A stretch of 64,000 nucleotides of DNA from contig NZ_CP151792.1 of NCBI RefSeq assembly GCF_038446525.1, positions 2,294,001 to 2,358,000 on the forward strand. The letters run 5' to 3'. Positions within the stretch are counted from its first letter, which is position 1. Each line of letters begins with the position of its first letter. Under the pieces are notes generated by a model that made no database searches, had not been told where the DNA came from, and saw only the letters and a list, made by a program, of their open reading frames with translations. Positions 17,040-27,312 of the stretch are shown here, one piece after another. The DNA is from Methanolobus sp. ZRKC5 (GTDB lineage: Archaea > Halobacteriota > Methanosarcinia > Methanosarcinales > Methanosarcinaceae). The position numbers and the translations under genes are program-made.

Positions 17040-18186
17040 GAGGATTTCGATATTCCCTCATTTTAGATCATTAAAGTATTCAAACTCAATTATATCCTCT
17101 CATTTTTTATCATTTTGTTTAATTTCTCTTCATTAATCCTTATTTTTAGTATAGCTCCCGCTATCCTAAATTACTCCTTTGGTTTTTAGTGTCCTCAATT
17201 GATGCAGATTAAAACAAAAAGCTGTCATCAACATTTTTGCATTCACTCTTTCTACAGTTGTAACAAGAACCTTTCTGGTTTTAAATATTTCTTTTGTCAC
17301 TGCATACACTCTTTCGCAAGGGACTCTTTTCACACTTATTCTTTCATTTCTGAGGATATCCATTATTCCTAAAGGATGTCCTCTTACAGCTCGTTGCATT
17401 GTTGCTGCAAAACCTTTTGCTATTGCTCCAAAATATCCTTTATCTCTATACACCACTTCACCCTTTTCAGACAGATCAACCTGTGAATCGTGAAGTGATG
17501 CAGTTGTTGTCTCAAATCTTCTGATTAGTTCATAATCCTTATCAATAATTGTATGAAGTTTGTATCCAAAGTGAGATTTACCATTTTTCTTAGTCCAGGT
17601 TCCATCTTTGCTTCTTCTTGTTTTCGCATCTTTTCCTCTGAGTACATCTGCTTTTGCATGTCCTGGATCTGAGTGAATAAAAGTTGCATCCTGGATCATT
17701 CCTTTTTTAATCTTCAAACCAAGAGCATCAAGCTGATTCTGCATTTCATCCCACACCGCTTTTTCTTTACCATTGTCGATAATTCTCTTCCTGAATGACC
17801 AGACAGTTGTACTGTCTGGTACATATTCAGGAAATCCCAGGAATTTCCTAAAGGATATCCTGTCAATACACTGCTTTTCAAGCTCAGCATCAGAAAGACC
17901 ATGCCATTGTTGCAGAACAAGCATCTTGAACATTACAATAACATCAGCTTCAGGCCGTCCGCCTGAAGCTGTTCTGTTTATGTACATTGACTCCAGAATA
18001 GGGCGAAAAGGCTTCCAATCTACTAAATATTCAATTTCAGCAAGCTTATCTCCGACAGATTGGAGACGCTTATATTCTTCATTTAAGGCAAAATCAGTAA
18101 AAGAATCCATAATAGTAAATTTGCTTTGCTATTATTTAAATTTTATTAAATTGTATGAGTATTGATGGTAGTTTCTCGAAATCCTC
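17040..18186. mobile_element. IS5-family insertion sequence
   Basis: 1147 bp bounded by GAGGATTTCGA and its inverted copy, with the 4-bp direct repeat TTTA on each side (17036-17039 and 18187-18190), consistent with IS5-family 4-bp duplications. It interrupts the outer transposase between the codons that read QTLK and LFYS. The transposase gene inside is intact, so this may be the youngest insertion. Confidence 0.85.
17166..18110 (-). CDS. IS5-family transposase
   Basis: 314-residue intact transposase. The N-terminal DUF772-like region (GGRPEADVIVMFKMLVLQQWHGLSDAELEKQ) is followed by the catalytic core with MIQDATFIHSDPGHAK, HFGYKLHTIID, VVYRDKGYFG and the C-terminal E in CERVYAVTKEIF. All three catalytic acidic residues appear present. 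No frameshift or stop is seen. Confidence 0.88.
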   Translation of the reverse strand: MDSFTDFALNEEYKRLQSVGDKLAEIEYLVDWKPFRPILESMYINRTASGGRPEADVIVMFKMLVLQQWHGLSDAELEKQCIDRISFRKFLGFPEYVPDSTTVWSFRKRIIDNGKEKAVWDEMQNQLDALGLKIKKGMIQDATFIHSDPGHAKADVLRGKDAKTRRSKDGTWTKKNGKSHFGYKLHTIIDKDYELIRRFETTTASLHDSQVDLSEKGEVVYRDKGYFGAIAKGFAATMQRAVRGHPLGIMDILRNERISVKRVPCERVYAVTKEIFKTRKVLVTTVERVNAKMLMTAFCFNLHQLRTLKTKGVI

Positions 18187-18596
18187 TTTAGTGTTTGCTG
18201 CAATAATCCAGTGAAGTAGATATATTTAATTCTTGTAATGAATTTATGCAGTGTAGTAAAATGTGGAACTTTTTTTAATCCAATTCTTGCTTTAACTTTA
18301 TCCATCACTTCTACAAGTTCAACAATATCTCTATAATCTTCATCAAGATATTCTTTTAACAAAACCAATGTCAATAGCTGGTGCTGAGTATATTTTCTTT
18401 TAGAATATTTAAAACTGTAAATCTGAAGGTGTGAGTTTCCTGATACAGCTAGCGCTGTATCAACAAACTTTAAGTACTTGTTAGGCAAAACACAATCATC
18501 CCCTTTTGTGTTTCTATCGCAAGTAATACTCAGGGGATTTATCCTTTTTAAATTATTATGCTAAAATAAAATGAGAAGTAGGTTTTCTACAGAGCC

Positions 18597-21057: not shown

Positions 21058-21657
21058 CTAAAATTCAAGAGGTTCTTCAATTGCATAATTAGGACATTTT
21101 TCGTAGCAGTTACCACATTCAAGGCACAGCGAGCTTTCAATGATGTAAATGTCTCCTTCGTTTATGGCTCCAGTCGGGCATGAATCCTTGCATATTCCAC
21201 AGGCAATACATTTGTCAGTAATTTTGTATCCGGGTTCAATTGGAGTTTTTCCTCCGAATGCGAATCTTTCACGCTTTGGAGTATTTGTCGAGAGGTCAAA
21301 AACTTCACCTACTCCTTTTGGAAGGCAAAATGCTTCCAGAATTTCCCTTGTATCTCCCGGATATATGTGGTTCATGACCGGATTCGCATCAAACATCTTA
21401 TCTAGGAAACTTCTATCAACAAACTCTATTTTTCCTTTAACTCTTACAGTGACATAATTCTCATCCATGACAACAATGGATATTTCTGGATTAGCTTTTA
21501 GTTGCTTGTAGTATGGTTTTCCCCTTGCTGTCAAAAAGTATAGCTTATCGTCTTCATGCAGCATCACATCAACTATCCGAACTTCCGGTATGTTGTTGTT
21601 AACAGTTGCAAGCGCTACGGATTTAATGTTTCTCAAAAATTCCAATGGATCATCCAT
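21058..21657 (-). CDS. PPOX-family flavin-binding protein fused to a 2[4Fe-4S] ferredoxin
   Basis: 199 residues. Residues 1-115 form a split-barrel of the pyridoxamine-phosphate-oxidase-like family (VALATVNNNIPEVRIVDVML, LYFLTARGKPYYKQL), likely to bind FMN or F420. Residues 145-195 form a bacterial-type ferredoxin with CIACGICKDSCP and CLECGNCYEKCP. The fusion suggests an oxidoreductase with its own electron-transfer domain. It is convergent with nothing and lies ten bases before the SnoaL-like gene's start on the same strand, so the two are probably one operon. Confidence 0.85.
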   Translation of the reverse strand: MDDPLEFLRNIKSVALATVNNNIPEVRIVDVMLHEDDKLYFLTARGKPYYKQLKANPEISIVVMDENYVTVRVKGKIEFVDRSFLDKMFDANPVMNHIYPGDTREILEAFCLPKGVGEVFDLSTNTPKRERFAFGGKTPIEPGYKITDKCIACGICKDSCPTGAINEGDIYIIESSLCLECGNCYEKCPNYAIEEPLEF

Positions 21658-21784: not shown

Positions 21785-23161
21785 TCATTCATCAAGATCG
21801 AAATGTGGAGTTTGGTGATCCATCACATCTCTTGCAGAGAAAGATCTCCAATATATATACCCTGAAAGAATAGCAATCATAAATTCCACAGACGGTATCA
21901 CTAACCAGATTCCCATATCTCCAAATATTTTTGGAACTATCAATGCAGCAGGAATTAAAAGAACAAAAGCCCTCAGGGATGTTAGTATCAAAGACGTTCT
22001 ACGGTCTTCGGTAGACTGGAAATATTTTACCAACGCTATGTTTATCGCTGTAAATATATAGCCGACAGAATAGAGTCTTAATGCAAAGCTTGTCAAGGAA
22101 ACAAGCTCGGATTCTGCAGATACATTTACGTACAGGCTAACGAGCTGTTCGCTGAATATCGCAATGATAGCGATTGTTGCAATACTAAGTACAGTTGTTG
22201 TTTTTAATGAATACTTTACAATATCGTGTATTCTGCTATGTTTCCCATGACCGAAATTGTAACTTATCAGGGGTTGATTTGTTTGGCCGATCCCGACAAA
22301 GAACATTGTAGATATCATTGAGACAGCTCCAACTATTGCAAAAGCAGCTACTCCGGTAGTTCCGTAGTATTTAGCTGCCAGAATGTTCATAGTAGCGAAG
22401 AAAATTGCTATTGAAATGGTTTCAATGAACAGGGGAATTGCATTGTGAACTATCCTTGATATGATCTGCAAATTGAAATGAGGCAGCACAAAACGCAGAT
22501 GTCCCTGTTTTCGAAGGAAATGGGTGAATAATACTGCTGCACCTACTAATTGTGACATTCCTGTGGCTAACGCTGCTCCAAAGAGTCCCCAGTGAAGCAC
22601 AAAGACAAAGAACGCATCAAGCGGTATGTTCAGTATACTTCCGCCAAGAGTGCTGAGTAGTGCAAGCTTTGGGTTTCCGTCATTTCTGATGGCATTTGAT
22701 AAGGTGATCTGAAGACAGAAGAAGATAATGAAATACAGAATGACTGACAGATATGTCTGTACCATTCCATTTATCTCTTCAGTAGCCCCTATCGCGTAGG
22801 ATATATCTTCAAGGAAAAACAGTCCTGTTGCTGAAAACAGAACAGCAATTATGGTAGTTGTGGCAAAAACCACAGAAAATATGTTGCTGGCTTCCCTGTA
22901 TTTTTTCTGGGCCAGCATGATGGAAATAATTATTGATGCACCCAAAGAAAGTGCCAGTATTACTGCATTTGTTCCCATCATCAATGGTATAGATAAATTT
23001 ACAGCCGCCAGTGCAGTACTTCCCACTCCTCTAGCAACAATGATACCATCAGCCACAAAGTAAGCTGCCATTATTAACATTGAACCTATTGAGGGAATAG
23101 CATATTTCCAGAAAATGGTTGATATCTTATCATTTCCAAGATCAATGGTTTTAGTATCCAT
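21785..23161 (-). CDS. MATE-family multidrug/Na+ antiporter
   Basis: 458-residue integral membrane protein with about twelve hydrophobic segments, in two homologous halves, typical of MATE exporters (MLIMAAYFVADGIIVARGVG near the start). Such proteins export cationic drugs or metabolites against Na+ or H+. The ATG at 23161 follows AAAGGACTG; the frame is open upstream into the MarR gene. It begins six bases after the MarR stop, so regulator and exporter form one operon. Confidence 0.9.
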   Translation of the reverse strand: MDTKTIDLGNDKISTIFWKYAIPSIGSMLIMAAYFVADGIIVARGVGSTALAAVNLSIPLMMGTNAVILALSLGASIIISIMLAQKKYREASNIFSVVFATTTIIAVLFSATGLFFLEDISYAIGATEEINGMVQTYLSVILYFIIFFCLQITLSNAIRNDGNPKLALLSTLGGSILNIPLDAFFVFVLHWGLFGAALATGMSQLVGAAVLFTHFLRKQGHLRFVLPHFNLQIISRIVHNAIPLFIETISIAIFFATMNILAAKYYGTTGVAAFAIVGAVSMISTMFFVGIGQTNQPLISYNFGHGKHSRIHDIVKYSLKTTTVLSIATIAIIAIFSEQLVSLYVNVSAESELVSLTSFALRLYSVGYIFTAINIALVKYFQSTEDRRTSLILTSLRAFVLLIPAALIVPKIFGDMGIWLVIPSVEFMIAILSGYIYWRSFSARDVMDHQTPHFDLDE

Positions 23162-23166
23162 ATTTA

Positions 23167-23673
23167 TCAGTCCTTTTTCAATATTACATTCGGCACTTTG
23201 TTGCAGCTTTCCAGTGGGAACTCCTTCCATTTCCTGTCATTTTTATCATAAGCAGCTTCGTAACTGTTCTGTGCCATTTTGAGAAGCAGTGCCTTTATCT
23301 GTGTTTTTTCTTTCTCAGTAAATCCTGAGAAAATAATTTGTTCCATTTCCTGATCGATCCTGATAACTTCCGGGATGATTCTCTCTCCGCTTTCCGTGAG
23401 ATAAATATGTACAGCTCTACGGTCATTTTCATCGGTGATGCGTTCGATAAATCCTTTATCTTCAAGAACCTTGACTGCACGGGCAATACCTCCTTTATCT
23501 AAGAGGAGTCTCCAGGCAAGTGTGTCCTGTGTAACACCCTGATTATGTGAAAGTACCATGAGCACGGAGAACTGGCCACCAGAAAGTCCAAGTTCTTTCA
23601 TTCTGGTGTTAAGCCTCACAAAATTACTGCGATAGGTAATTGAGATTAATGCTCCGATGGGTATATTGTCCAT
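23167..23673 (-). CDS. MarR-family transcriptional regulator (MATE operon)
   Basis: 168-residue MarR repressor-like protein. The winged helix covers about residues 30-110 (GLSGGQFSVLMVLSHNQGVTQDTLAWRL, then the wing DENDRRAVHIYLTESG). Start at ATG 23673 after GGAG. It is about 60% similar along its length to the second MarR protein at 25356-25826, and both head an operon with a transporter. A 29-base palindrome-rich operator candidate lies 22 bases upstream. Likely an autoregulated repressor responding to an effector exported by the MATE pump. Confidence 0.9.
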   Translation of the reverse strand: MDNIPIGALISITYRSNFVRLNTRMKELGLSGGQFSVLMVLSHNQGVTQDTLAWRLLLDKGGIARAVKVLEDKGFIERITDENDRRAVHIYLTESGERIIPEVIRIDQEMEQIIFSGFTEKEKTQIKALLLKMAQNSYEAAYDKNDRKWKEFPLESCNKVPNVILKKD

Positions 23674-23694
23674 ATTTTGCTCCATATAAATTTA

Positions 23695-23723
23695 GTTGTC
23701 CAGTCAACTGTTGACGATGCAAC
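23695..23723. promoter_or_regulatory. Candidate MarR operator 1
   Basis: GTTG, a core GTCAACTGTTGAC-like palindrome (CAACTGTTG) and a terminal CAAC within 29 bases, 22 bases upstream of the MarR start. The same layout recurs at 25850-25878 and 26569-26597. Confidence 0.6.
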
Positions 23724-24044
23724 TATGTCTATTTGGTATTTAATGATGTTGATGAGAGTAAGAAATCAGAGATCCATCTCTAAAAAGAAAATAACAAATT
23801 TGTGGTGCAGGAGCTTGAACACAATCGCATTGAAGCCAATGAAATAATTGAAAGATATGGTTAGAAGGTTTTTTTAATCGAAACACGAAGGAGATGAGGG
23901 AAATGATTCAATATTCGGATTGAATTCAGATAATGAGAAAAAAGCAAAAATGAAGCAAGCAATCAAAATAAAACAATACTTCATCTTGATTTGCTTGATT
24001 TCCAGACAATGAATCCATTAAGATACTGAAAAGTAAAATGAGGA
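23724..24044. other. Spacer with possible gene debris
   Basis: About 320 bases between the MarR operator and the MFS gene end. A short frame (FVVQELEHNRIEANEIIERYG, near 23802-23868) looks coding-like but has no start. Nothing else is supported. Confidence 0.35.
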
Positions 24045-25313
24045 TTATTCATCCTCATCATAAACAGCATTTTCAAGATGAACAATATCTGTATTTGGTC
24101 CCAGAGTAAAATTTTTGCTCTGTCTTAATACTATATTTCCAGCAGGTATAATAATCCCCATAGCAACTCCTGCCAGACCAAAGTATCCAAACGCGCTGGC
24201 AAGTGACATACCGTTCCCGAGTAAAGGTTGCATGATTATGGGAGATACAAATTGAGCGAGGAACAATATCGAGGTTAATCCACCAAAGATCCTTCCACGC
24301 AGATGCTGGGGTGAAAGCAGACCGATCCAATGGATTAAAGTCGGTTGGATCACGCCGGTTCCTATTCCAGCAAATACAACACCTGCAACAATAGTAGCCA
24401 TACTACCATTTGCCATTAAGAATAAACCAAGGCCTGTAAACCCAATACCTAAAGCACATCTCATCAGTTCGTCCAGATATTTTGAAATTCGAACCTGACA
24501 AAGAGCAGCCACCATACTGGCCATTCCCAAAAGGCCAAGCAAAATACCTCCTATGAGACTGGAAGTAATTCCACTTTCAGTAAAGAGGAATGGTCCTTTT
24601 GAAGGTACAGTGAACATAAGTACCATTGCAATGAACATTATAAAATAGACAAATGCTATGGCTCCTATCTTCAATTTACTTTTTGGGTATGTTGTTTCAT
24701 TTTTACTTACCAGTGTGTGATGTTTTGCAGGTTCCAGCAAGGAAAATGCACCGAACATTATTGGCAAAGCAATCAAATAGATAAAGAATGGATAACGCCA
24801 GCTAAATTCAGCAAGTCCTCCACCTCCGGTTTCCAGTATCAAACCACCAAAACCCATGGATGCAGCTTGCATTCCATAAATCTTCTGTCTTTTTGCAGGA
24901 TCCGCATAATAATCAGTGATCAATGCGGTTGCACAGATCATTATTCCTGCGATCGCTATCCCAAGAACAAACCTTCCCGCAAGAATAGATTCAAGAGAGT
25001 CAAAATAAGCTCCTGTAACTCCTGACAGACTGAAAAGGAGAAGGGAAGCTATAAGTAATTTCTTTTTACCGTATTTATCTGCAATGATTCCCATGAACGG
25101 GGAACTCAAAGCGATTGCAAGAGAGGGCAAGGTTACCATAAATGACAGGAGGTATTCTGCATTCTCTAAATTGCTGAAATATTGACCCATCTTCGGAAGT
25201 GCAGGTGCAACTGCTGCTCCTCCCATAAGAGTGATCATGGAAGCAGCCAGCAGGATAGGTAGTGCTAATTTACTGCTTGAAATAGGGTTTTTATCTATAG
25301 CCTGATTTTTCAT
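24045..25313 (-). CDS. Major facilitator superfamily transporter
   Basis: 422-residue MFS permease with about twelve hydrophobic segments; the MFS signature GIIADKYGKKKLLIASLL lies between segments 2 and 3. Similar to drug or metabolite exporters with TetA/Bcr-like N-terminus. GGAG precedes the ATG by nine bases. It lies 42 bases after the second MarR gene and is probably co-transcribed with it, a parallel to the MarR-MATE pair. Confidence 0.9.
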   Translation of the reverse strand: MKNQAIDKNPISSSKLALPILLAASMITLMGGAAVAPALPKMGQYFSNLENAEYLLSFMVTLPSLAIALSSPFMGIIADKYGKKKLLIASLLLFSLSGVTGAYFDSLESILAGRFVLGIAIAGIMICATALITDYYADPAKRQKIYGMQAASMGFGGLILETGGGGLAEFSWRYPFFIYLIALPIMFGAFSLLEPAKHHTLVSKNETTYPKSKLKIGAIAFVYFIMFIAMVLMFTVPSKGPFLFTESGITSSLIGGILLGLLGMASMVAALCQVRISKYLDELMRCALGIGFTGLGLFLMANGSMATIVAGVVFAGIGTGVIQPTLIHWIGLLSPQHLRGRIFGGLTSILFLAQFVSPIIMQPLLGNGMSLASAFGYFGLAGVAMGIIIPAGNIVLRQSKNFTLGPNTDIVHLENAVYDEDE

Positions 25314-25355: not shown

Positions 25356-25826
25356 CTAGATTTTTTTAAGTGGAAACTCCTTCCGTTTCTCACCGTCTTT
25401 ATAAGCAGCTTCATAAGAATTCTGTGCAATTTTGTGGAGTAGTACCTTCGCATGTGTCCTTTCTTCCTCCGTAAATCCTGATAATGTAGTTTCTTCCAGT
25501 TCCTGATCAATTTTGAGAACTTTCGGGATGAGCTGTTCCCCGGTTTCCGTGAGATAAATAAGCACAGCTCGACGGTTACTTTCATCGGTGATACGTCTGA
25601 TAAATCCTTTGTCTTCAAGGATTCTGACTGCCCGGGCAATACTTCCTTTGTCTATGAGAAGCCTCCAGGCAAGTGTGTCCTGTGTAATGCCCTGATCATG
25701 TGAAAGCACCATGAGTACGAAGAACTGGCCTGCAGAAAGTCCTATTTCTTTCATTTTGTTATTTATCCACACAAAATGACTACGATATGTTATTGAGATG
25801 AATGCTCCGAGGGGAATGTCTTCCAT
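25356..25826 (-). CDS. MarR-family transcriptional regulator (MFS operon)
   Basis: 156-residue MarR protein, a paralogue of 23167-23673: both begin M(D/E)(N/D)IP(I/L)GA then ISITYRS and share the winged helix with TQDTLAWRLL. AAAGGAG precedes the ATG. Candidate operator 24 bases upstream. The pair of MarR-exporter modules looks like a duplication of the regulator that picked up different transporters. Confidence 0.9.
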   Translation of the reverse strand: MEDIPLGAFISITYRSHFVWINNKMKEIGLSAGQFFVLMVLSHDQGITQDTLAWRLLIDKGSIARAVRILEDKGFIRRITDESNRRAVLIYLTETGEQLIPKVLKIDQELEETTLSGFTEEERTHAKVLLHKIAQNSYEAAYKDGEKRKEFPLKKI

Positions 25827-25849: not shown

Positions 25850-25878
25850 GTTGTGGCAACAACTGTTGTTCTGGCAAT
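25850..25878. promoter_or_regulatory. Candidate MarR operator 2
   Basis: 29-base site beginning GTTGTGGCAACAACTGTTG. The core GCAACAACTGTTGTT is identical to that of site 3 at 26569-26597, and CAACTGTTG is shared with site 1. It lies 24 bases upstream of the MarR start. Confidence 0.65.
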
Positions 25879-25929
25879 AGTGTATAAACTTGTTATTTAA
25901 AGATGGCTGTTGCAGAGAAAGTATATTTC

Positions 25930-26475
25930 TCAATACTCCGTACCTTTGTCTTTCTTTGCTTCGATCTTTTTTTGAAGTTCGACAAAAGCCTGAACAAAAG
26001 CTTCAGGTCTTGGCGGGCAGCTCGGAACATAGACATCTACAGGGAATATTTCATCCACATTCTGAACAGTGCTGTAAGATTCGTAAAAAGGACCACCACT
26101 GATGGAACAGTCGTCATAACAAATAACCCACTTTGGCGAAGGCATCTGATCCCATATTCTTTTCAGTGCTGACAAGTACTTCTTTGTTACATACCCTGTA
26201 ATGAGTAGTACATCAGCATGTTTTGGGGAGTTACGCGGGATAATACCGAAACGGTCCATGCCATAGTGAGCCATATTTCCAGCAATCTCCTCAACACCAC
26301 AACAACCCATTGCATTTGACACGAACCACAATGAATTCTTGTGACTCCAGTTAAGTACATCCTGGATCTTTGTCTTTTTTATAAATTCTGCAATGACATT
26401 TGATTCAGTGAGTGCTACGCCGGGTATGTCATTGTATCCTATCTGCTCTATTCTTGTTTGATCTAATTCAACCAT
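25930..26475 (-). CDS. Orphan NuoB/FpoB-like [NiFe]-hydrogenase small-subunit-family protein
   Basis: 181-residue member of the NADH dehydrogenase 20-kDa subunit family (NuoB, FpoB, hydrogenase small subunit). The cluster-N2 type cysteines are visible: NAMGCCGVEE (CC pair), CYDDCSISGGPF and VPSCPPRPEA. It would carry one [4Fe-4S] cluster at the quinone/methanophenazine-facing end of complex-I-like enzymes. No other complex subunits are nearby, so it is an orphan. The ATG at 26475 follows GGAAGTG. Upstream DNA is a decayed MarR 5' region with its operator, so its expression may now follow the MarR signal. Confidence 0.85.
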   Translation of the reverse strand: MVELDQTRIEQIGYNDIPGVALTESNVIAEFIKKTKIQDVLNWSHKNSLWFVSNAMGCCGVEEIAGNMAHYGMDRFGIIPRNSPKHADVLLITGYVTKKYLSALKRIWDQMPSPKWVICYDDCSISGGPFYESYSTVQNVDEIFPVDVYVPSCPPRPEAFVQAFVELQKKIEAKKDKGTEY

Positions 26476-26493
26476 TTGAGACACTTCCTGTTG

Positions 26494-26550
26494 GTTAGTG
26501 TGGATGTGATATGTTATCCGGATGAATACTCCGGGGGGTATGGAGTCCAG
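26494..26550 (-). pseudogene. Decayed N-terminus of a third MarR gene
   Basis: On the minus strand a CTG followed by DSIPPGVFIRITYHIHTN matches the first 19 residues of the two MarR proteins (EDIPLGAFISITYRSHFVWI). Nucleotide similarity to the second MarR gene is continuous from the operator through this segment. The A of the start codon is missing (ATCATGG there, ATCTGG here). Beyond it the sequence leads into the nuoB-like gene, which has its own start. Confidence 0.75.
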
Positions 26551-26568
26551 ATTTACTCTTTCAAGTGT

Positions 26569-26597
26569 GTTGCTGCAACAACTGTTGTTGCGACAAC
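26569..26597. promoter_or_regulatory. Candidate MarR operator 3
   Basis: 29-base site beginning GTTGCTGCAACAACTGTTG and ending CGACAAC, 19 bases upstream of the dead MarR start and about 95 bases upstream of the nuoB-like start. Identical core to site 2. Confidence 0.65.
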
Positions 26598-26869
26598 AAT
26601 AAAGCAAAAACAGGTATTTAAGGATATTGTTTACAGTGAGAAACCAGTGATCTAGATTGCAAGTTTTTAATCCAAAGTGTTGTCATATAAACTATAATTA
26701 ACAACAACTAAGCATCCTGTTCTATTGAAAGTTGTCAGCGCTTAATTGAAGATATCGAGTCCCGGATTTAAATCCACAAAAGGAGGGGGTTCATTGTGAA
26801 TTCATGTTAATATCTTCCTGGTTTTAAACCATATAAATTCAATGAATTGCCTTATATAATATCAAGGTA
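26598..26869. other. Spacer with a very strong ribosome-binding site but no gene
   Basis: AAAGGAGGGGG at about 26779-26789 on the plus strand is followed by GTG-AAT-TCA-TGT-TAA, a four-codon frame. On the minus strand, from site A leftward, the DNA resembles the leader of the flavoprotein gene at 31073 up to an ATG (near 26806) that is followed by only three sense codons. Probably a deletion scar. Confidence 0.4.
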
Positions 26870-26940: not shown

Positions 26941-27312
26941 ATGGGAAACGACGAAAAACTGATCAACATAAGGAATAACAAAGAATATCACTGCCCTGTG
27001 GAAGCGACCCTTGATGTAATCGGGGGGAAATGGAAACCTTTGATCCTCTGGCAACTAAAAGAACTTGAGGTCATACGCTATAACAAACTACAGCAGAAAC
27101 TACATGGAGTTTCCCCAAGGATGCTGACGAAACAGCTAAGGGAGCTTGAAGAGGATGGCCTGGTAAACCGCAAGATGTATCCGGAGATTCCTCCAAAGGT
27201 CGAATATTCATTAACGGAATTTGGTAAGACCGTTACTCCTATACTTGAAGCACTTTGTGACTGGGGTAGTGAATACTTGGGAAGACAATGTGCTCTTGGG
27301 CCGGATGAATAA
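26941..27312 (+). CDS. HxlR-family transcriptional regulator
   Basis: 123-residue winged-helix regulator. The HxlR signature is present: CPVEATLDVIGGKWKPLILWQL, LHGVSPRMLTKQLRELEEDGLV and the wing PPKVEYSLTEFGKTV. A cysteine at residue 20 is at the redox-sensing position of many HxlR proteins such as HypR/YodB. The gene starts 11 bases after control region A. Copies of the same region precede an intact and a deleted flavoprotein gene, so HxlR probably controls a redox-stress flavoprotein as well as itself. Confidence 0.9.
   Translation: MGNDEKLINIRNNKEYHCPVEATLDVIGGKWKPLILWQLKELEVIRYNKLQQKLHGVSPRMLTKQLRELEEDGLVNRKMYPEIPPKVEYSLTEFGKTVTPILEALCDWGSEYLGRQCALGPDE

Follow-up and report, generated by a model that had tools for sequence, protein, structure and literature searches.

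An orphan FpoB paralogue behind a MarR-type operator in Methanolobus: a possible inducible subunit of the F420H2 dehydrogenase

Genes and control elements of the fpoB2 locus

The window (the whole stretch of DNA analysed here, 64 kb long) comes from a closed Methanolobus genome of 3.05 Mb, hereafter G000, of which it covers bases 2,294,001–2,358,000. On its minus strand, an archaeal TATA box is followed by a 29-bp MarR-type operator, a 5′ fragment of a MarR gene and, finally, fpoB2, an orphan gene encoding a paralogue of FpoB, a subunit of F420H2 dehydrogenase. Two live MarR genes, each with a transporter gene downstream, lie further along the same strand. In window coordinates, the features are the following:

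26615–26629 (−): BRE/TATA context of fpoB2, CAATATCCTTAAATA, identical in two other fpoB2 leaders
26569–26597 (−): MarR-type operator of fpoB2, perfect GTTGN6CAACWGTTGN6CAAC (pattern match and leader comparison)
26503–26550 (−): 5′-end remnant of a MarR gene, about 16 codons, start codon CTG (base matches to MarR2 and MarR1)
26482–26489 (−): probable ribosome-binding site of fpoB2, AGGAAGTG, read off the sequence
25930–26475 (−): fpoB2, orphan FpoB/NuoB paralogue of 181 amino acids (TIGR01957, PF01058)
25850–25878 (−): operator of MarR2, one mismatch (pattern match); its TATA box at 25894–25900
25356–25826 (−): MarR2, live MarR-family regulator (Pfam PF01047)
24045–25313 (−): MFS efflux-type transporter, downstream of MarR2 (Pfam PF07690)
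23695–23723 (−): operator of MarR1, perfect (pattern match); its TATA box at 23737–23743
23167–23685 (−): MarR1, a live regulator of the MarR family whose conserved start is probably 23673 (Pfam PF12802/PF01047)
21785–23230 (−): MATE efflux transporter, downstream of MarR1 (Pfam PF01554)

As listed, the MATE open reading frame overlaps MarR1; its true start is probably near 23161. Just past the MATE gene (21058–21657, minus strand), a pyridoxamine-oxidase-like flavin domain is fused to a 2[4Fe-4S] ferredoxin domain. Divergent from fpoB2 there is a gene for an HxlR-type regulator of the RrpA/RrpB-like redox sensor family (26941–27312, plus strand), which could influence the intergenic region of fpoB2. 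A DDE transposase (DUF772/DDE_Tnp_1; 17166–18110, minus strand) and a second transposase-like frame (18132–18488) are also encoded in the window, and insertion sequences near the locus may have a bearing on the rearranged MarR pieces.

The product of fpoB2 scores 197.6 bits against TIGR01957 of the NuoB family (cut-off 142.7) and 83.2 against PF01058 (cut-off 27). The genome holds two NuoB-domain genes: the canonical fpoB, situated between fpoA and fpoC in the fpo operon at about 932,500 of the chromosome (C1), and fpoB2, which stands some 1.39 Mb from it and is flanked by no fpo gene. The label "orphan NuoB", given in a sequence-only reading that preceded this work, is thus sound as to family and isolation, and can be made exact as an FpoB paralogue. 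The locus is real and conserved; its parts, a MarR operon and an FpoB paralogue, are ordinary, while their combination is unusual.

Operator, promoter and the MarR fragment

When the leaders of fpoB2, MarR1 and MarR2 are aligned, they share a TATA box, an operator, a ribosome-binding site and N-terminal MarR codons. This alignment, together with the pattern match, bears out the proposal of the sequence-only reading that a minus-strand operator with the 29-base layout of the two live MarR genes precedes the nuoB-like gene. The fpoB2 operator, GTTGTCGCAACAACAGTTGTTGCAGCAAC, fits GTTG-N6-CAAC-W-GTTG-N6-CAAC perfectly, and its core, ACAACAGTTGTTG, is, as had been claimed, the same as that of the MarR2 operator. 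Throughout the 3.05-Mb genome, perfect matches occur only at MarR1 and fpoB2, and a single mismatch adds only MarR2 and one unrelated site. The three operators of the window start 20–24 nt downstream of a TTAAATA box, the fpoB2 site being 24 nt from its TATA. In archaeal promoters generally, a position 20–25 nt downstream of the first base of the TATA box corresponds to the transcription start, which the operator would therefore overlie. Inspection by eye of 26475–26550 showed no TATA-like box suggestive of an independent promoter. Overall, a respiratory-type subunit stands behind a MarR operator, near live MarR genes and in the position expected for repression; since the operator is that of autoregulated MarR genes and is placed at the promoter, MarR control of fpoB2 seems likely and is well supported by the sequence.

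The same arrangement recurs across the genus. MarR homologues with 59–75% identity are present in 14 Methanolobus genomes, G000 included, and an MFS transporter follows MarR in 11 others. The operator is common to at least 13 MarR–transporter loci, always 20–25 nt from the TATA box; the geometry found at fpoB2 is that of the MarR genes of 13 genomes (12 besides G000). In G005, G008 and, judging by site position, G020 (C1:1899486), a second operator copy lies directly upstream of MarR–MFS. In G005 (L153:5498–5884) and G008 (L154:5870–6258), a small gene for a winged-helix protein, preceded by a perfect operator of its own, takes the slot held by fpoB2 in the window. Thus, the slot ahead of MarR appears to hold, repeatedly, an extra gene with an operator of its own. 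A second, more distant family of MarR paralogues (33–39% identity) is found in many Methanolobus genomes, with its own operator close to GTTGCATATGCAACAATTGCATACGCAAC (e.g., G004:C1:2239748, G013:C49:86394 and G007:C95:97116). Even if the functional reading of fpoB2 proposed below should fail, the analysis of this locus still yields a conserved MarR operator for the genus.

Between operator and gene lies the MarR-like stretch 26503–26550, which agrees with MarR2 at 32/45 bases and with MarR1 at 30/45. As the best background among about 128,000 unrelated positions of the 64-kb window is 25/45, the fragment is not a product of chance; it is the third-best match in the window, behind the two live MarR genes. 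It had been described as the first 19 codons of a MarR gene with a destroyed ATG. The fragment itself is real, although recognisable homology extends over about 16 codons, so that 19 is slightly generous, and its start codon is indeed lost, CTG occupying 26550–26548, one base short of the ATCATGG of MarR2. With MarR homology, no start and no complete frame, it is a 5′-end remnant and not a whole gene.

The frame of the fragment has no stop and stays open into fpoB2, and we considered a MarR–FpoB2 fusion translated from the CTG. However, a ribosome-binding site of its own precedes the ATG at 26475, and the N-terminus read from this ATG (MVELDQT) resembles that of canonical FpoB (MDEIEQT). Having lost its ATG, the fragment no longer starts such a fusion. 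A partly similar structure was seen in G015 (L146:5848–5948), where the leader between operator and MarR gene contains an open frame of some 15 codons that repeats the beginning of MarR (MDDIHLESFIIMNKE). This copy spans about 12 codons, stands ahead of the MarR gene itself and ends inside the next ribosome-binding site; it is possibly an upstream ORF or duplication debris.

Relatives of fpoB2 and the origin of its MarR linkage

A real MarR fragment between operator and fpoB2 fits the capture suggested by the sequence-only reading, in which a MarR gene, since dead, would have lent its promoter and opening codons to fpoB2, and would have done so in G000 only. The relatives speak against this. 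An extra fpoB is present in 3 of 27 Methanolobus genomes: G000, G001 (M. bombayensis) and G007. Among the other genera of the family, nothing comparable stood out, except for a second copy at about 68–69% in G106. Both G001 and G007 show the gene order DUF2798 gene, fpoB2, marR, with the DUF2798 membrane gene directly upstream of fpoB2 (L015:5285–5761 and L113:~228–503, a fragment in the latter); this gene is absent at the window locus. The CAATATCCTTAAATA promoter context is exact in all three fpoB2 promoters, so that the TATA context in G000 agrees with those of the other two at 15/15 bases, against 13/15 and 10/15 for its own MarR promoters. Operator-like repeats, TTGTNNNNACAA, accompany fpoB2 in G001 and G007: overlapping copies with two mismatches each in G007, and a degenerate operator with 5 mismatches in G001. 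The linked marR has no operator of its own in either genome, which in G007 is as expected for an autoregulated fpoB2–marR operon. No pump was found adjoining fpoB2–marR in these two genomes, and FpoB2 itself may thus be the useful product there.

Neither of the two leaders contains a MarR fragment. The pairing of fpoB2 with MarR thus exists without it, and the claim that a dead MarR gene created the wiring, for which gene order in relatives had been named as a check, is not supported and probably wrong. The locus corrects that view.

The phylogenetic evidence is less uniform. In the nucleotide tree, the three fpoB2 genes form one clade with support of 100/95. Such a grouping is not explained by composition, as canonical genes of similarly low GC3 stay outside the clade. 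In the protein tree, the three FpoB2 do not form one clade, the G000 sequence sitting on a long branch (0.6 changes per column), but a single clade is not rejected (AU p 0.07–0.24). Taken alone, the protein tree leaves some room for independent MarR wiring, as does the fact that the leader past the operator is MarR-like in G000 and not in the relatives. Weighing these points, we consider capture in G000 unlikely. Fragment-free pairing in G001 and G007 and the spread of the operator across the genus make it most likely that the MarR linkage is ancestral to fpoB2, the fragment probably being debris added later to the leader, more simply by insertion or gene conversion.

Two other histories were set aside. 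A recent duplication of the resident fpoB is disfavoured, since FpoB of G000 is among the less similar homologues (72%) and the corresponding protein grouping gives an AU p of 0.02. Lateral transfer of the fpoB2–marR unit between G001 and G007 had been hinted at by a dS of 0.55 for fpoB2 against 1.23 for canonical fpoB, and was dropped because other genes of this pair span dS 0.45 to 1.09.

The FpoB2 protein and its putative role

The fpoB2 frame is intact, without internal stop, frameshift or indel. Compared with G021, its differences are distributed 29/26/81 over the three codon positions. Values of dN/dS are 0.08–0.15 for G000 fpoB2 versus other FpoB and FpoB2, 0.07 between the fpoB2 of G001 and G007, and lower (0.04–0.08) among canonical FpoB. 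Neutral simulation predicted about 89 amino-acid changes, whereas 43 are seen, and an open frame survives neutral drift to this distance in less than 1% of simulations. FpoB2 is, therefore, intact and under purifying selection. The N2 cysteine ligands C58, C59, C123 and C153 are invariant in an alignment of 26 sequences, and the protein matches chains of solved complex I with E values from 1e-37 to 1e-43; its predicted structure (mean pLDDT 71) resembles NuoB chains of complex I.

It is nevertheless the most divergent of the three FpoB2. Canonical Methanolobus FpoB has 132 near-invariant positions, of which 21 are changed in G000 and 13 and 14 in the other two copies, which retain most invariant residues. 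In G000, the motifs W-GR-K, GDC and PGC became W-SH-K, DDC and PSC; besides R45H, this places G121D and G152S close to the N2 cysteines. These changes, the long branch, the dN/dS above that of canonical FpoB and the patchy occurrence are what one would expect of a decaying duplicate without present importance, hitch-hiking by a MarR–efflux locus. Such decay seems to us very unlikely: dN/dS is still low, stops and indels are missing, all metal ligands are present, drift would rarely have spared the frame, and the pairing with MarR is repeated in three genomes.

Alternatively, FpoB2 might act outside Fpo, as a stand-alone or otherwise partnered iron–sulfur protein of stress metabolism, for example an electron carrier or a sacrificial cluster protein. 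The gene is physically apart from all fpo genes, and the G000 copy is altered at several invariant residues that flank the cluster or are likely to contact other subunits. Against this, FpoB2 keeps 72–79% identity to FpoB over nearly the full length, N- and C-termini included, the other two copies preserve most invariant residues, and proteins of the NuoB family are generally components of larger complexes. We regard a role outside Fpo as improbable, though a little less so than decay.

One change concerns the putative carrier pocket. Position 64 is isoleucine in 3/3 FpoB2 and leucine in 27/27 canonical Methanolobus FpoB, and in the alignment it falls on the second Met of the EMM motif, Met91 of Yarrowia NDUFS7. 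In complex I, E63 and I64 of the G000 FpoB2 would sit in the helix bearing Met90 and Met91 (Yarrowia numbering). Met91 faces the ubiquinone headgroup, and its counterparts touch rotenone and piericidin (PMC9503403); the headgroup adjoins helix alpha-2 (PMC6168287). L64I is a mild substitution, and the pocket is not significantly enriched in changes (2/6 in G000 FpoB2, P 0.24; P 0.11–0.12 in the other FpoB2). We dropped a significant concentration of changes there and keep the carrier-pocket change as a lead only.

We propose, as a reading to which we give an even chance, that fpoB2 encodes a MarR-repressed alternative isoform of FpoB, induced by a toxicant and exchanged into Fpo. Within the membrane-bound F420H2:methanophenazine oxidoreductase (Fpo), FpoB carries the last iron–sulfur cluster, N2, and faces the electron-carrier pocket. 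A MarR-family repressor, in G000 probably MarR1 and/or MarR2, would sit on the 29-bp operator where transcription starts, block initiation and hold fpoB2 off. A ligand, likely a lipophilic or redox-active toxicant, would free the repressor from the operator, and in G000 FpoB2 would then be made along with the MarR-controlled MFS and MATE pumps. Since the genome encodes one FpoD (Complex1_49kDa), the most likely course upon derepression would be that FpoB2 takes the place of FpoB beside the remaining Fpo subunits, of which there is a single set; we find this exchange plausible, about as apt to be right as wrong. The resulting Fpo, with an altered N2/methanophenazine carrier pocket, might function better under that stress. 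Tolerance to an inhibitor as the benefit is speculative and rather doubtful, and the same holds for the full chain in which an inhibitor of the methanophenazine pocket would derepress MarR and supply an alternative N2 subunit for a tolerant Fpo, beside or instead of the efflux pumps.

Against the proposed reading, we count the degenerate operator of G001, the protein tree, the occurrence in 3 of 27 genomes and the mildness of L64I. No Fpo inhibitor of that kind was identified, and the literature searched gave nothing relevant on duplicated fpoB genes or on control of Fpo by MarR. Still, fpoB2 is paired with a gene for a repressor of the MarR family in two related species as well, and the spare FpoB is thus probably an emergency version of an Fpo part for use under chemical attack. 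If so, one electron-transfer subunit of an energy-converting complex in an archaeon would be exchanged when a chemical calls for it; to our knowledge, target replacement of that form has not been reported for enzymes of the complex I type. Such a swap would also point to naturally occurring inhibitors that act at the methanophenazine site and, with them, to selective ways to block methanogenesis.

Duplicated target genes serve elsewhere as resistance or self-resistance devices, and by analogy fpoB2 may be likened to regulated resistant-target isoforms, in which a possible target of an inhibitor is likewise present as an additional copy under a chemical-sensing regulator. The likeness is partial: no inhibitor is known for FpoB2, and the target would be one subunit of a large archaeal membrane complex. 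NuoB/NDUFS7 (PSST) of respiratory complex I is the homologous subunit of the N2 cluster and carrier pocket, its Met90/Met91 (Yarrowia numbering) corresponding to E63/I64 in the G000 FpoB2 and to L/L in canonical FpoB. With MarR-autoregulated drug-efflux operons (MarR/MFS, MarR/MATE), the locus shares operator, TATA spacing and adjacent MarR, but it controls a respiratory-complex subunit, in two genomes with no adjoining pump. The closest relative is FpoB of the F420H2 dehydrogenase of Methanosarcinales, alike in family, length, fold and N2 ligands. Unlike canonical FpoB, FpoB2 is encoded alone, off the fpo operon and behind a MarR operator, and in G000 it departs from the near-invariant positions of its Methanolobus counterparts.
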